DNA of 15,484 bases from Brachyspira catarrhinii (lineage in GTDB: Bacteria; Spirochaetota; Brachyspiria; Brachyspirales; Brachyspiraceae), in the NCBI RefSeq assembly GCF_005518285.1, contig NZ_SJDU01000013.1:1-15484 (forward strand). Reading direction: 5' to 3'. A program made the translations under genes and the position numbers. The notes under the pieces are model-generated. The model was not told the DNA's origin and searched no databases. It saw only the letters and a list, made by a program, of their open reading frames with translations. Shown one piece after another: positions 184 through 15,397 of the stretch (the first letter of the stretch is position 1; each line of letters starts with the position of its first letter).

Positions 184-3100
184 CTATTTTTGTATATGCA
201 AATTTTCAATATCCAAATCAGAATTTAAATTATCAAGATTATTTTTAGCCGTTTCATTGCCCGCGTTTATTTTCAAAGCTTTTTCAAACGATTTTTTAGC
301 TTCCTCGATTTTATTAATATTTGCCAAAACAACGCCGTAATTGTTCAATATAGAACTGTCGTTAATTACTACAATTGCGGGCGAATTGTCAATATCGACT
401 CCCAACTCTTTCAAAAGATAATCGTTCTTGGAATTAATCTCAACGCCTTTATTAAAATCAATTCCTCTTTCAAAAGAATGAAAAGCGTTATAATAATCTT
501 TCAAAAACAGATAAGAATTGCCGAGAAAACGCCAAGTTTCAAAATCGCCATCGCATAATAGAGACGATTTCAAAAGATTTTCCGAAGCTTCTTTATATTT
601 TTCGATTGAATAATATGACATCCCGAGCCATTTATAATTAATCGAACTATTTTGATTAATTTCAACCGCTTTTGATAAATATTCTATCGCCTTGTCAAAA
701 TCGCATGTTTTATAATAAGTATTTCCCAGCCAATAATAATGATTGTCGTTTTCGGGATTTAATTCGATGGTTTTGTTAAACGATTCAATCGATTCTTTAT
801 ACTGTCCGCTTTTGTTATATGAAATGCCGAGCCAATACCAATTGCCGACATCCTCGGAATTTAATTCGTTGGCTTTAAGCAAGGCTTCAATCGACTTTTC
901 AAATTGTCCGTTTTTATTGTAAGAAATTCCAAGCCATTGCCAATTAAGATGATTTGAATTGTTTAATTCTACAGCTTTCAAAAAATTCTCTGCCGATTCT
1001 TTATATTGATTATTTTCAAAATAAGCTTTACCTAATAAAAAATAATTCGTAAAATCTTCCGTAGAATTTTTAGCGTCTATTTCAATTGCTTTAACTAAAG
1101 AATTTATCGCATCTTCATAATTTCCAATTTGTAGATAAGAACCGCCCAACCACTGCCAATTTTTACTATCGTTTGGGTTTAATTCGATTGCCTTTAATAA
1201 AGATTCTACGGCTTTTTCATGTTGATTGCTTTCATAATAAGAACAGCCGAGCCATTGCCAAATTTTGCTATCGTCAGGGTTTAATTCTACAGCTTTTAGT
1301 AAATATTTTATAGCTTCTTCATATTTTCCGATTTCAAAATAGGAATAACCAACGCCTCCCAAATTTTCAGGGTTATTAATATCAAAACCGATATTTTTTA
1401 ATAATTCCTCAATATATTTTTTATATTCTTCGTTTTCGTTTAATATCATAGCCCTTAAAAAAGCTTTCACGCCGTTTTGAAATTGTTTCGTTTCAAAGAA
1501 AATACTTCCCAAAAGTTGCCAATTAAGATAATTATTTTTGTTTATTTCAATAGCTTTAGAACATAGATTTATAGAATTTTCATATTCCCCAATTTGAAGA
1601 TACGAATTTCCAATTTCTCTTAATAAATATTCTATATCGTATTTAACTTTTTCATTTGGATTTAATTCTAAAGATTTAAATAAAGATTCCACAGCTTGTT
1701 TATATTGAAAACTTTCATAATAAGAAGCTCCCAACCAAAACCAAGCCACAAAATCATTGGATTTTAATTTTATCGATTTTAATAAATTTTCTATCGCCTC
1801 TTTATACTCTTTATTTTTACAATAAGAAATTCCAAGCCAACCAAAATAATTATATTCGTTTTTATTTAATTCAATCGCTTTTATAAAACATTTTATAGCG
1901 TCCGCATGCCGTTTGTCTTTATTATATAAATGTCCTGCAACATCATAAATTTTCTCTTCACTTATATTAAATAACGATTTGAGAGTTTCTTTATATTCGT
2001 TATTAGAATTAAATTCTATAGCTTCGACATAACATTTAATTGCATGCTCAAATTGTTTATTTTTATGATACGACATAATTAACCAATACCAATTACTATC
2101 GTCTTCTTTATTTAGTTCTAACGCTCTTTTAAGAGCTTTTATAGCATGTTTATATTGTCCGATTTCGTAATATGCGTTTCCTAACCAATTATAATTAGGA
2201 TAATAATCAGAATTTAATTCTATAGATTTAAAAAAACTTTTTATAGCTTCTCTATACTCGCCAATTTCGGTATAATTGCAACCGAGCCAATGCCAATTAA
2301 GATAATTATTTTTGTTTATTTCAATCGCTTTTAATAACGATTCTATGGCTTTATCGTATTGATTATTTTTAAAATATGATATTCCTAACGAATTCCAATT
2401 TTTTACGCTATCAACATAAAAATCTATATCGCTTAATAATGATTTTGTATATTCTTTAATATTATTATTTAATTCAAAAGACTTTAGTAAAAATTCTATT
2501 ACATCCTCTTTATAGTATTCTTTTTTATCGCTATCGTTATATAAATTTTTTAAAATATCTAAATTAATATCTGGAAACTTTAATTCTATATTTCTTGTAA
2601 ACGCCTCTATAGATTTTTTATATTCCATAGTGTAAAAGTAAGAAATTCCTAATCCATACCAACTATTTTCAGAATTATGATTTAATTTAATTGACTTTAA
2701 TAGAGAATTTATAGCTTCTATATGTTGTCCATTTAAAGCGTAAGAACTTCCTAACCAATGATAATTAAGTTCATCGTTAGGATTCAATTCGATAGCTTTT
2801 AATAATGCTTCTATTGATTTTTTATATTGTCCGATTTTATTATATGAATGTCCTAACCAGTGCCAATTAAGAAAATCATTGGGTTTTAATTCTATGGCTT
2901 TTTTAAGTGTTTTTATAGCTTCTCTGTATTGCTTATTATCGTCATATAAACAACCCAACCAATATAAATTCTTTGCATTATTTGGTTCTAATTTTACCGC
3001 TTTTTTAAAAGATTTTATAGATTTTTTATATTCTTTATTCTCATAATATGAACGTCCTAAATAATATAAACACTCCGCATTATTAGGATTTAATTTAAGA

Positions 3101-3225
3101 AATTGAGAAAGTATTTTTATAGCTTCTTTATATTCTTTATTTTTACAATGAACCTTGCCAATATAAAGTAAATTATGTTTTTTATTATTAGCTTTATTAA
3201 TTTTATTTTTATTAGTTTTTGGCAT
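184..3225 (-). CDS. Giant tetratricopeptide-repeat (TPR) protein
   Basis: A 1013-residue protein built almost wholly from about 26 TPR units of mostly 34 residues, each close to 'x-NWxWLGxSYxxxGQYxxAIExLLKAIELNPND'. Units start near residue 17 and run to about residue 1000. Longer spacers interrupt them near residues 205-260 (a degenerate unit), 410-430, 535-550, 610-635 and 940-975. TPR arrays form right-handed superhelices that bind other proteins or peptides, and no enzymatic domain is visible. The N-terminus (MPKTNKNKINKANNKKH) is basic and polar, with no signal peptide or membrane segment, so a cytoplasmic location is likely. The ATG at 3225 is supported by a good Shine-Dalgarno GAGGTG at 3236-3231, five bases upstream. 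The gene diverges from the efflux operon. The last third is richer in G+C than the AT-rich first half. Binding partner and role cannot be told from sequence. Confidence 0.9.
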   Translation of the reverse strand: MPKTNKNKINKANNKKHNLLYIGKVHCKNKEYKEAIKILSQFLKLNPNNAECLYYLGRSYYENKEYKKSIKSFKKAVKLEPNNAKNLYWLGCLYDDNKQYREAIKTLKKAIELKPNDFLNWHWLGHSYNKIGQYKKSIEALLKAIELNPNDELNYHWLGSSYALNGQHIEAINSLLKSIKLNHNSENSWYGLGISYFYTMEYKKSIEAFTRNIELKFPDINLDILKNLYNDSDKKEYYKEDVIEFLLKSFELNNNIKEYTKSLLSDIDFYVDSVKNWNSLGISYFKNNQYDKAIESLLKAIEINKNNYLNWHWLGCNYTEIGEYREAIKSFFKSIELNSDYYPNYNWLGNAYYEIGQYKHAIKALKRALELNKEDDSNWYWLIMSYHKNKQFEHAIKCYVEAIEFNSNNEYKETLKSLFNISEEKIYDVAGHLYNKDKRHADAIKCFIKAIELNKNEYNYFGWLGISYCKNKEYKEAIENLLKSIKLKSNDFVAWFWLGASYYESFQYKQAVESLFKSLELNPNEKVKYDIEYLLREIGNSYLQIGEYENSINLCSKAIEINKNNYLNWQLLGSIFFETKQFQNGVKAFLRAMILNENEEYKKYIEELLKNIGFDINNPENLGGVGYSYFEIGKYEEAIKYLLKAVELNPDDSKIWQWLGCSYYESNQHEKAVESLLKAIELNPNDSKNWQWLGGSYLQIGNYEDAINSLVKAIEIDAKNSTEDFTNYFLLGKAYFENNQYKESAENFLKAVELNNSNHLNWQWLGISYNKNGQFEKSIEALLKANELNSEDVGNWYWLGISYNKSGQYKESIESFNKTIELNPENDNHYYWLGNTYYKTCDFDKAIEYLSKAVEINQNSSINYKWLGMSYYSIEKYKEASENLLKSSLLCDGDFETWRFLGNSYLFLKDYYNAFHSFERGIDFNKGVEINSKNDYLLKELGVDIDNSPAIVVINDSSILNNYGVVLANINKIEEAKKSFEKALKINAGNETAKNNLDNLNSDLDIENLHIQK
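1517..1551. repeat. 35-bp exact repeat within the TPR gene, copy 1
   Basis: This stretch is identical over 35 bases to 2291-2325 in the same orientation. It encodes the 'EINKNNYLNW' boundary between adjacent TPR units. Neighbouring units are much more diverged at DNA level, so the identity suggests recent duplication or gene conversion between units about 770 bp apart. Confidence 0.85.
2291..2325. repeat. 35-bp exact repeat within the TPR gene, copy 2
   Basis: Exact copy of 1517-1551. Recombination between the two copies would delete or duplicate about 774 bp, which is 258 codons and therefore in frame. That gives a simple route to length variation of the TPR array. Confidence 0.85.
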
Positions 3226-12774: not shown

Positions 12775-13749
12775 ATGGAAAATTTAACAAAACCTTTAAT
12801 AGAAGTTCAAGACTTGAAACAGCATTTTAAGATAAAGGGCGGACTCTTCGGCAGAGCTACTCAAACCGTAAAAGCCGTTGACGGAGTTTCGTTTAATATA
12901 TACAGAGGAGAAACTTTCGGATTGGTTGGAGAATCGGGAAGCGGTAAAACGACTTTGGGAAGAACATTGCTTCATCTTTACAATCCAACGAGCGGAAAAA
13001 TATTTTTTGACGGAGAAGAAATAAGTAAAGAAAATTATAGAAATTACGCTAAAAAAATGCAAATAATTTTTCAAGACCCTTACGCCTCTTTGAATCCTCG
13101 AATGACGGTTGAAGATATAATCGGAGAAGCTTTGGATGTTCATAAATTATATTCCACCAAAAAAGAAAGAAGAGACAAAATAATAGAACTTCTTAAACTT
13201 GTGGGATTAAACGCGGAGCAAGCGCAGAGATATCCGCATGAATTTTCTGGAGGACAGAGACAGAGAATAGGAATAGCGAGAGCTTTGGCGGTTAGCCCAG
13301 AATTTATAGTTTGCGATGAACCCGTTTCGGCGTTGGATGTTTCAATTCAAGCGCAGATTATAAATATGCTTTACGATATGCAGCAGGAAATGAAATTGAC
13401 TTATCTTTTTATAGCGCATGATTTGGCGGTTGTTCGTCAGTTGTCTAAAAGAATAGCCGTTATGTATTTGGGAAATGTCGTGGAACTTACCGACAGCGAG
13501 TCTCTATATACTCATTCGCTTCATCCTTATACGCAGTCTTTGATTTCGGCGATTCCGATTTCAGAACCTTCGGTTGCGAAAACTAAACAAAGAATAATAC
13601 TTTCGGGCGAGATACCCTCCCCTATCAATCCGCCTTCTGGATGCAAATTCAGAACGAGATGTCCAAAAGCGGAATCTATATGTTCCGAAAAAGTTCCAGA
13701 GTTTAGAGAAATTGAATCGGGACATTTTTGCGCCTGCCATTTGGTTTGA
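12775..13749 (+). CDS. oppF: Oligopeptide ABC transporter ATPase OppF
   Basis: A 324-residue second ATPase of the peptide importer. Motifs are Walker A GESGSGKT (52-59), Gln100, signature FSGGQRQR (157-164), Walker B FIVCDEP with Glu182, and switch His215, so both Opp ATP sites should be competent. The C-terminal domain carries cysteines 290, 296, 303, 319 and 321 in the family arrangement. The N-terminal 'KQHFKIKGGLFGRATQTVKAVDGVSF' type region, with an extended loop before the first strand, distinguishes OppF from OppD. The ribosome binding site is poor (only a GCGAG-like stretch around 12764), so translation may be weaker than that of oppD or partly coupled. It is the only gene here ending in TGA among those checked. 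The membrane glycosyltransferase-like gene starts 31 bp later. Confidence 0.94.
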   Translation: MENLTKPLIEVQDLKQHFKIKGGLFGRATQTVKAVDGVSFNIYRGETFGLVGESGSGKTTLGRTLLHLYNPTSGKIFFDGEEISKENYRNYAKKMQIIFQDPYASLNPRMTVEDIIGEALDVHKLYSTKKERRDKIIELLKLVGLNAEQAQRYPHEFSGGQRQRIGIARALAVSPEFIVCDEPVSALDVSIQAQIINMLYDMQQEMKLTYLFIAHDLAVVRQLSKRIAVMYLGNVVELTDSESLYTHSLHPYTQSLISAIPISEPSVAKTKQRIILSGEIPSPINPPSGCKFRTRCPKAESICSEKVPEFREIESGHFCACHLV

Positions 13750-13780
13750 TTATTAAAATATTATTAAAAGAGGATAAACT

Positions 13781-15397
13781 ATGAAAATAGATAAATATAT
13801 AACAATTCCAATTTTACTTATAATATTTACAATAGTAGCAAATTTATTTTTAGATTATTACATTATACCGAAAAGATATGTGAGAATAGACCAATCTCAA
13901 CATTTTTACGATATGAAGAAATGGTATGAAAGCGGAAAATTGCCGACAACGAGCGCAAGATTTATTGCAAGTCAAGTGGTTAATGACGAGTTTACCACTC
14001 CGAGAGTTCCTGGGGGGGGGTATTATATACTTTATACTTTATTTTATAAAATGGCAAACGAAAGTTTATTAGGAGCAAAGATTATTAATCTTATTTTTAA
14101 TTTAATAATCATATCTATATTTCTTTTTTGGTTTTATAAAAAATTTGGATTATTAATAACCTCGATTATCGCTCCTTTAATTTTATGCAACGGCTATTTT
14201 GTTATGGCGACTACGGATTTTTGGAATCCTAACTTAACTTTGATTTTTAGCTTTCTCTTTTTTATATTTTTATTCGAATATATAGGTTCTGAAAACGAAA
14301 ATATTATAAAACTTTCCGCCGTTATGATTTTCCCAATACTTGCGATAATGGCGCAAGGACATTTTGTAACTTTTTTTTCTATGATTCCTACGATTATTGT
14401 TTATTTGATTATTAAGTTTAAACGTTCGATAAAATATATTATGTTTTGGATATTTGGAGTTTTTATTTCATTTTTGGAATATTTGCCTTATATAATTTCG
14501 GAGTTAAAAAACGGGTTTAATAATACGAATATGATTTTTTCCGTTCGCTCTGGGCTTTCTACTTTGCCTTTTCCTCAAATGCATGCAATATTTTTATTTC
14601 CGACAAACGAGATGTCCGTATTTTATGGAAATAGTATATACGGTTCTATTAATTTTTGGCTTCAATATCCGTTTATGATATTAGGATTATTATTTTTATT
14701 TGCAAGTATTATATTTTCTTTTTACTGCCTAATAAGGGTTTTTTATTTTGTTTTTAATAGAAAATACGAACCTAAATCAAATATTGAAAAAACTATAATA
14801 GAGATGCTAAAAATATTTTTAATTTTTATACCGACTACGATAATTGTTAATATACTCGCTCGCTCAAAACCCGGAACATTTCATTATTTATATTCCGCAT
14901 TTTCTCTTTCATATTTGCCAATTATATTATTTTTATTTCAGAAAAAAGATAAATTTATTTTGAATAAAAAATTTTTCTATATATTTTTTGCATGCATATT
15001 TATAAATATTTTTGTAATGACATTGCAACTTACGACTTATACTAAAAATTATGAAGTCCCAAGAAATGTTGAAGGCATGAAAACTGTAGCAAAAACTTTA
15101 ATAGAATATTCAAAAGGCGAAGAGTTAAGCGTTATAGGTTTGTATGCAGACGATAATTATATGTATAGAGATATTGCGATAGCCTACTTTCCAGATATGG
15201 TTTGGAATCAAAATAATAATTCCACAAATTTATATTTAATTTTAGACAGAATAGGGACTTTATCGAGACCTAAATATGCCGTTTCAAATTATATGGAATA
15301 TCTAAATAAAAACGCTACTTTGCTTGGAGATAACGGAACTTTATTTGTTTATAAATATCATGGCGAAGAGCCTTTGGAAATGCCAAAAAAGAAGTAA
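13781..15397 (+). CDS. Polytopic membrane protein, probable GT-C (family 39-like) glycosyltransferase
   Basis: A 538-residue integral membrane protein with about 10-11 hydrophobic segments (near 7-27, 99-119, 123-143, 149-168, 178-212, 217-238, 290-325, 341-361, 366-386 and 397-418) and a soluble C-terminal tail from about 420. After TM1 comes RIDQSQHFYDMKKWYESGKLP (an acidic Asp37 in the first extracytoplasmic loop, where GT-C enzymes keep their catalytic Asp/Glu), then TPRVPGGGYYILY (73-85). Further on are a 'QGHF' segment (192-195) and 'LPYIISELKNGFNNT' (235-249). This set recalls family 39-like glycosyltransferases that use polyprenyl-phosphate sugars to glycosylate lipids or proteins outside the inner membrane. 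Acceptor and sugar are unknown. A nine-G run encodes Gly78-80. AGAGGA (13769-13774) lies six bases before the ATG. It probably shares the opp transcript. Confidence 0.75.
   Translation: MKIDKYITIPILLIIFTIVANLFLDYYIIPKRYVRIDQSQHFYDMKKWYESGKLPTTSARFIASQVVNDEFTTPRVPGGGYYILYTLFYKMANESLLGAKIINLIFNLIIISIFLFWFYKKFGLLITSIIAPLILCNGYFVMATTDFWNPNLTLIFSFLFFIFLFEYIGSENENIIKLSAVMIFPILAIMAQGHFVTFFSMIPTIIVYLIIKFKRSIKYIMFWIFGVFISFLEYLPYIISELKNGFNNTNMIFSVRSGLSTLPFPQMHAIFLFPTNEMSVFYGNSIYGSINFWLQYPFMILGLLFLFASIIFSFYCLIRVFYFVFNRKYEPKSNIEKTIIEMLKIFLIFIPTTIIVNILARSKPGTFHYLYSAFSLSYLPIILFLFQKKDKFILNKKFFYIFFACIFINIFVMTLQLTTYTKNYEVPRNVEGMKTVAKTLIEYSKGEELSVIGLYADDNYMYRDIAIAYFPDMVWNQNNNSTNLYLILDRIGTLSRPKYAVSNYMEYLNKNATLLGDNGTLFVYKYHGEEPLEMPKKK
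14012..14020 (+). repeat. Nine-G homopolymer, candidate phase-variation tract
   Basis: Nine consecutive G encode Gly78-Gly80 of the membrane glycosyltransferase-like protein. No other G or C run longer than four was noticed in the window. With eight G the frame runs into TAG at 14070-14072 (about 96 residues); with ten G it meets TAA within about ten codons (about 89 residues). Nine G is the ON state in this sequence. Confidence 0.8.

Follow-up and report, generated by a model that had tools for sequence, protein, structure and literature searches.

We find that a tract of nine consecutive Gs at positions 14012–14020 (+ strand) of a Brachyspira catarrhinii contig is very probably a slipped-strand (simple-sequence) contingency site, that is, a putative on/off switch for the gene that carries it. 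The stretch of DNA analyzed (the window) comprises 15,484 bases and makes up the whole of contig C41; the genome to which it belongs is 88.5% complete and totals 2,691,939 bases over 987 contigs. The tract lies inside a reading frame, early enough for a change of length to shorten the protein; relatives of that protein break at the tract in both other frames, and the tract is part of a genome-wide excess of runs of nine to fourteen Gs. The last two observations support the original prediction, which had read the tract as a device for phase variation by slippage.

The G tract and the gene that contains it

The window has a GC content of 0.327 and contains no other run of five or more Gs or Cs, so the nine-G run is indeed out of character for this DNA. 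A G9 run was present in 4 of 200 dinucleotide shuffles of the window (mean 0.03). GGG accounts for 12 of the 279 glycine codons in the window's nine main genes, the tract excluded, so that three consecutive GGG codons would occur by chance with a probability near 8e-5. A chance run as the origin of G9 was rejected on the strength of the shuffles, this codon rarity, and the Markov expectation given below. With nine Gs the run is also longer than the 7–8 that a Campylobacter survey (PMC6321876) takes as the minimum for G/C tracts.

The tract gene (13781–15397, + strand) is open through the tract and encodes a 538-residue membrane protein, a probable GT-C-like glycosyltransferase, preceded by an AGAGGA at 13769–13774 (+) that resembles a Shine-Dalgarno sequence by eye. 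The tract supplies codons 78–80 of 538 as three GGG, the early placement that had been claimed for it, and sits within the codons of a conserved Val-Pro-Gly-Gly-x-Tyr-Tyr motif (14006–14026, +). In an alignment of 54 family members, Pro77, Gly78, and Tyr82 are invariant, while Gly79 and Tyr81 are at least 90% conserved, which confirms the Pro-Gly-Gly-x-Tyr-Tyr motif around the tract. Both shifted frames stop within about 20 codons, again as foreseen: one is closed after 11 codons by a TAA at 14047–14049 (+) and the other after 19 codons by a TAG at 14070–14072 (+). Rescue by translation from an internal start seems weak: codon 91 is the first in-frame ATG 3′ of the tract, and the 20 preceding bases show no Shine-Dalgarno-like run by eye. 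We also considered a promoter in this region (15 promoter-like hexamers against 12.7 expected) and a structured RNA where the gene begins (z 0.32), and rejected both.

Directly upstream lies an oppF-like ABC transporter ATPase gene (12775–13749, +), the product of which shares 90–96% identity with its counterparts in 24 of 25 other Brachyspira genomes (three being partial pieces) and 80% with that of G009. In 19 of 25 genomes, the window's included, a member of the membrane-protein family lies no more than 124 bases behind oppF and in its orientation, directly after an oligopeptide-transporter operon; in the window, oppF and the tract gene together span 12775–15397. The oppF identities and the place of the family behind oppF led us to reject a foreign origin for the contig. 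Elsewhere in the window, a gene on the minus strand (184–3225) encodes a 1013-residue protein of TPR-like repeats, as judged by eye; the efflux and transporter genes are on the other strand.

Simple hydropathy analysis of the tract protein gives 11 membrane segments; residues 25–100 separate the first two, and a soluble end begins near residue 418. An acidic residue in the first loop is expected of GT-C glycosyltransferases. Asp37, His41, and Asp44 are at least 90% conserved in the 54 family members, any such role of Asp37 and Asp44 being putative. A relative of 52% identity, P0115, is named glycosyltransferase RgtA/B/C/D-like in UniRef and itself has no Pfam match; one of the 54 members comes near each of PMT_2 (E 0.0064) and Glyco_transf_22 (E 0.0011). 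The many membrane segments, long first loop, and soluble end resemble these GT-C enzymes, whereas the window protein has no Pfam or NCBIfam match, none of five further relatives matches the curated GT-C models, and a family profile retrieves no convincing relative of solved structure. The GT-C label of the original prediction thus has indirect support, from the hydropathy, the name of P0115, and the marginal domain matches, though not from a Pfam or NCBIfam match of the protein's own; a GT-C glycosyltransferase is likely but unproven as the identity of the tract protein.

Alleles at the tract site and the origin of the tract

A whole-protein search scored the 7,997 candidates sharing the most words with the window protein, 171 of which reached E ≤0.001; the best 120 were listed. 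Two of them are full-length relatives of 91% identity that differ from each other by a single in-frame glycine at the tract site: P0001 (308 member sequences) reads PGGGYY, and P0002 (6 member sequences) reads PGGYY. Among the 118 others of these best 120 of 171, 117 have a residue other than glycine after the two glycines and one lacks the motif region. Ala-Tyr follows the glycines in 81 of those 117, and one has PGE in place of PGG.

Broken-gene alleles, for which the original prediction had suggested looking, were sought with residues 1–77 as the query, a search that could return only proteins of about 42–135 residues. Of the 13 proteins obtained, the five nearest (P0121–P0125; 96–101 residues) resemble the family up to PRVPGG and then run out of frame at the tract, with both other frames represented. 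The tails of P0121 and P0123 (IIYFILxFxKWQTxVY) and of P0125 (TIYFILYFTKWQKKVY) resemble the window's 19-codon alternative frame, and those of P0122 and P0124 (VLYILYFILQNGKRxFIRSKNY) resemble its 11-codon frame with the first stop read as Gln. These breaks were read by eye, the chance likeness of the tails carrying an automatic alignment past the tract. The remaining eight short proteins are relatives that lack the tract: seven break or end elsewhere, and P0133, which seems to carry an internal deletion, diverges from the family near residue 75. The site is thus represented at the protein level by both ON and OFF alleles, two full-length and five shortened. If the glycine codons are GGG, the corresponding DNA lengths would be G9 and G6 for the full-length forms and about G7, G8, and either G11 or G12 for the short ones.

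These alleles are metagenome-derived proteins from public assemblies, in which homopolymer errors are possible, and P0121–P0125 come from mostly short contigs (longest 1,396 to 8,169 bases). G runs are error-prone in PCR and in some sequencing methods, so the shortened forms might be sequencing, PCR, or assembly errors in a homopolymer that is stable in cells. We regard this as improbable, since the short proteins fall into five separate 90% clusters with 6, 13, 3, 3, and 3 member sequences (28 in all) and in two frames, and the two full-length relatives differ by one in-frame glycine. Error would also leave unexplained why runs of at least nine Gs number 16 in the window's genome and those of seven or eight only one.

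Beyond these close relatives, the family has no tract at this site. All 32 distinct sites in the fetched loci, a count that excludes the window's G9, the G6 of G021, and the G7 of C95 and was made with a motif filter that misses some loci, use mixed glycine codons, and at most two (22 sites), three (7), or four (3) Gs stand in a row across the motif. The original prediction had held that mixed codons in orthologues would speak against a maintained tract, and outside the window's lineage mixed codons are what we find. Because the distant members lack the tract while relatives of 91% identity differ by one glycine and five break here, we read the mixed codons as the mark of a recent tract that arose in the window's lineage. 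A paralogue on contig C95 of the same genome reads CCT GGG GGG GCT at the motif, the only run of exactly seven Gs in that genome; G runs are thus able to lengthen at this motif, as one did in the window's lineage.

The copy in G021, a genome closely related to the window's, was weighed as a clean OFF allele, a reading weakened by the fact that more than the number of Gs differs: the frame breaks at a G6 whose flank is not that of the window, His replaces Pro, and its first ~70 residues resemble the paralogue type P0088 by eye. This paralogue-like front suggests that recombination near the tract took part, and the locus (L168, G021:C1:1466000-1473000) looks like a recombinant of two paralogues with its joint near the tract. 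Behind the tract, 427 of 458 residues are identical to the window protein, no stops occur, and dN is 0.029 against a dS of 0.298 (dN/dS near 0.1), which argues that the region is under selection or was until lately. The G021 copy is thus evidence of selection behind a broken frame and not of slippage as such.

The altered G021 site and the absence of a tract at all 32 other family sites would also fit a transient G run, thrown up by mutation in a gene on its way to loss, with the broken copies as pseudogenes. This relic reading is very unlikely, being at odds with the low dN/dS and the 458 stop-free codons behind the G021 break, with the persistence of full-length relatives at 91% identity in 308 and 6 member sequences, and with the window gene, in which we see no decay other than at the tract. 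Least credible of all is that the run acts by RNA polymerase or ribosome slippage, as frameshifting or a tuning of expression, and not by a change of DNA length: long G runs can be slippery for polymerases, and out-of-frame alleles might leak some full-length product, but the alleles in three frames appear to be DNA-encoded, which that reading does not need.

Under the slippage reading, the G9 tract would gain or lose Gs during replication. Lengths that keep the frame, as here, would give the full 538-residue membrane protein, while other lengths would end translation soon after the tract, leaving roughly 90–100 residues and one membrane segment. A population would then be a mixture of cells with and without the protein's activity, most likely the transfer of sugar to a cell-envelope glycan. 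We infer that the alleles arise by slippage of the G run and interconvert often, and that the product of the tract gene acts at the surface, as the term "surface glycan" in the original prediction supposes.

G tracts across Brachyspira genomes

The window's genome holds 12 runs of exactly six Gs, one of seven, none of eight, and 16 of nine or more (nine G9, three G10, two G11, one G13, and one G14). Markov models of order 1, 2, and 3, trained on 64,457 bases of contigs picked for their tracts with the long runs removed, predict 1.2, 0.15, and 0.04 runs of at least nine Gs. Each of these 16 tracts touches a reading frame of 100 codons or longer on the strand that carries the Gs; in seven the frame continues through, in five it is split into two pieces in different frames, and in four it stops no more than six codons after the tract.

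A Pfam scan of pieces at all 16 loci gave a match at 13. Glycosyltransferases occur at four (GT8, GT2 twice, and TOD1/MUCI70), methyltransferases at five, and a radical-SAM/SPASM protein at one, where SPASM lies above and radical-SAM just below the cut-off. The three loci without a Pfam match are the window gene, a gene that looks lipoprotein-like by eye, and one short frame. Transporters of the SSF, PTS sorbitol, and DctM types occur at three loci, and these are weakened as evidence. For the PTS gene (C12), only one of the 25 other genomes has a relative, at 52% identity; for the DctM gene (C105), G007 alone has a close counterpart (89%), and the nearest named match is in Brevinema (74%); the SSF gene (C1) has relatives of 22–30% only. 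Contigs C12 and C105 may be foreign to the genome bin. The SSF-type genes of the window's genome (L047, G000:C1) and of G014 (L120, G014:C1:240400-244400), at 29% identity, both have G8–G10 runs near the gene front. On contig G000:C130 (L051), five G9–G11 tracts lie on 13 kb, at 1133, 7040, 8253, 9145, and 12646; three of them are in related methyltransferase genes, and two of these three are in register.

Runs of eight or more Gs occur at least once in 25 of 26 Brachyspira genomes, with 16 in the window's genome, 18 in G021, and 0 to 8 in each of the other 24. A frame of at least 100 codons is touched by 14 of the 18 runs in G021 and by 46 of the 70 in those 24 genomes; not every run is therefore a gene switch, since the remaining 24 of the 70 touch no such frame. 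The Pfam scan covered 13 of the 18 G021 tracts and 7 of these 70. Eight of the 13 G021 tracts scanned have a match, namely FkbM and two other methyltransferases, GT10, GT2, two radical-SAM proteins (one below the cut-off), and a Serpulina variable surface protein. This last gene, the Serpulina/Brachyspira variable surface protein gene (PF05540; L098, G021:C1:1698400-1702400), is split in two frames at a G9 (1977–1985 of the locus).

Two tracts are common to the window's genome and G021, one in a lipoprotein-like gene (G14 and G10, both split) and one in a methyltransferase gene (G9 and G9, both split). A further family has an in-register tract in nine copies from six genomes (G003, G008, G013, G019, G022, and G024), where it ranges from G8 to G13 and leaves five copies open and four split; the two of the nine copies that were scanned are both methyltransferases. 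Variation in tract length at a fixed site therefore extends beyond the window gene.

The tracts of contigs C24, C180, and C211 fall late in their genes, within a shared tail of about WWIPxRKWRDNFRNKFFDKFI, and the tail region has matches in 22 of 26 genomes. One 3′ segment with a G tract is attached in turn to a radical-SAM protein, a GT8, and a methyltransferase (L049, L053, and L054 on G000 C24, C180, and C211, and L100 in G021). The DNA around the tract is 81–87% identical, so the tail seems to be shared by recombination.

Relation to known phase-variable systems

Phase variation through poly-G tracts is an established feature of Campylobacter, Helicobacter, and Neisseria; Brachyspira are intestinal spirochaetes of people, pigs, and birds. 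According to the PhasomeIt survey of Campylobacter (PMC6321876), G runs there peak at nine (53%) and ten (26%) and mostly fall within open reading frames, the Gs being on the coding strand; the C. jejuni genomes of the survey's isolate set have a median of 20. The window's genome is alike in having nine G9 and three G10 among 16 tracts, against about 20, in open reading frames with G on the coding strand, and in both systems homologs with and without a tract coexist (PMC6321876). It differs in its spirochaete host, in a gene family for which we found no match among theirs, and in that the length differences predicted here lie between relatives.

Nearer in lineage, Treponema pallidum has length-variable G tracts in the promoters of the envelope genes tprE/G/J/L and tp0126 (PMC7864442). 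That spirochaete also combines envelope genes with length-variable G runs of about 7–11, but its tracts, as described in that text, are in promoters, whereas the window tract is inside a coding region. In Helicobacter canadensis, early tracts stop translation, as the window's would, and late homopolymer tracts change C-termini, much like those of C24, C180, and C211; variation among reads of a population was shown there, whereas ours is a comparison of relatives' proteins (PMC2823697).

Among the papers listed by our searches, which did not extend to preprints and most subscription journals, none reports poly-G or slipped-strand phase variation in Brachyspira. One source notes only that on/off switching can occur in Vsp proteins and takes its example from Mycoplasma (PMC5415613), and term look-up in the available text of PMC2650404, PMC4603578, PMC6779451, PMC8116685, and PMC3532143 returned nothing on homopolymer switching. 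Systems of this kind are known; within the scope of these searches, the organism and the gene family are new to them.

Taken together, these results incline us, if only slightly, to the view that a poly-G phasome not reported before operates in Brachyspira, chiefly in the window's lineage and G021. Its targets would be envelope-glycan enzymes, lipoproteins, a variable surface protein, and perhaps nutrient transporters; populations in the gut would then be mosaics of surface (and feeding) types, and some tracts would switch a C-terminal tail common to unrelated glycan enzymes. If the 16 tracts and those of the near relative do switch, heterogeneity of surface glycans and proteins would be measurable from existing metagenomic reads, and some genes now listed as truncated or hypothetical would be explained.
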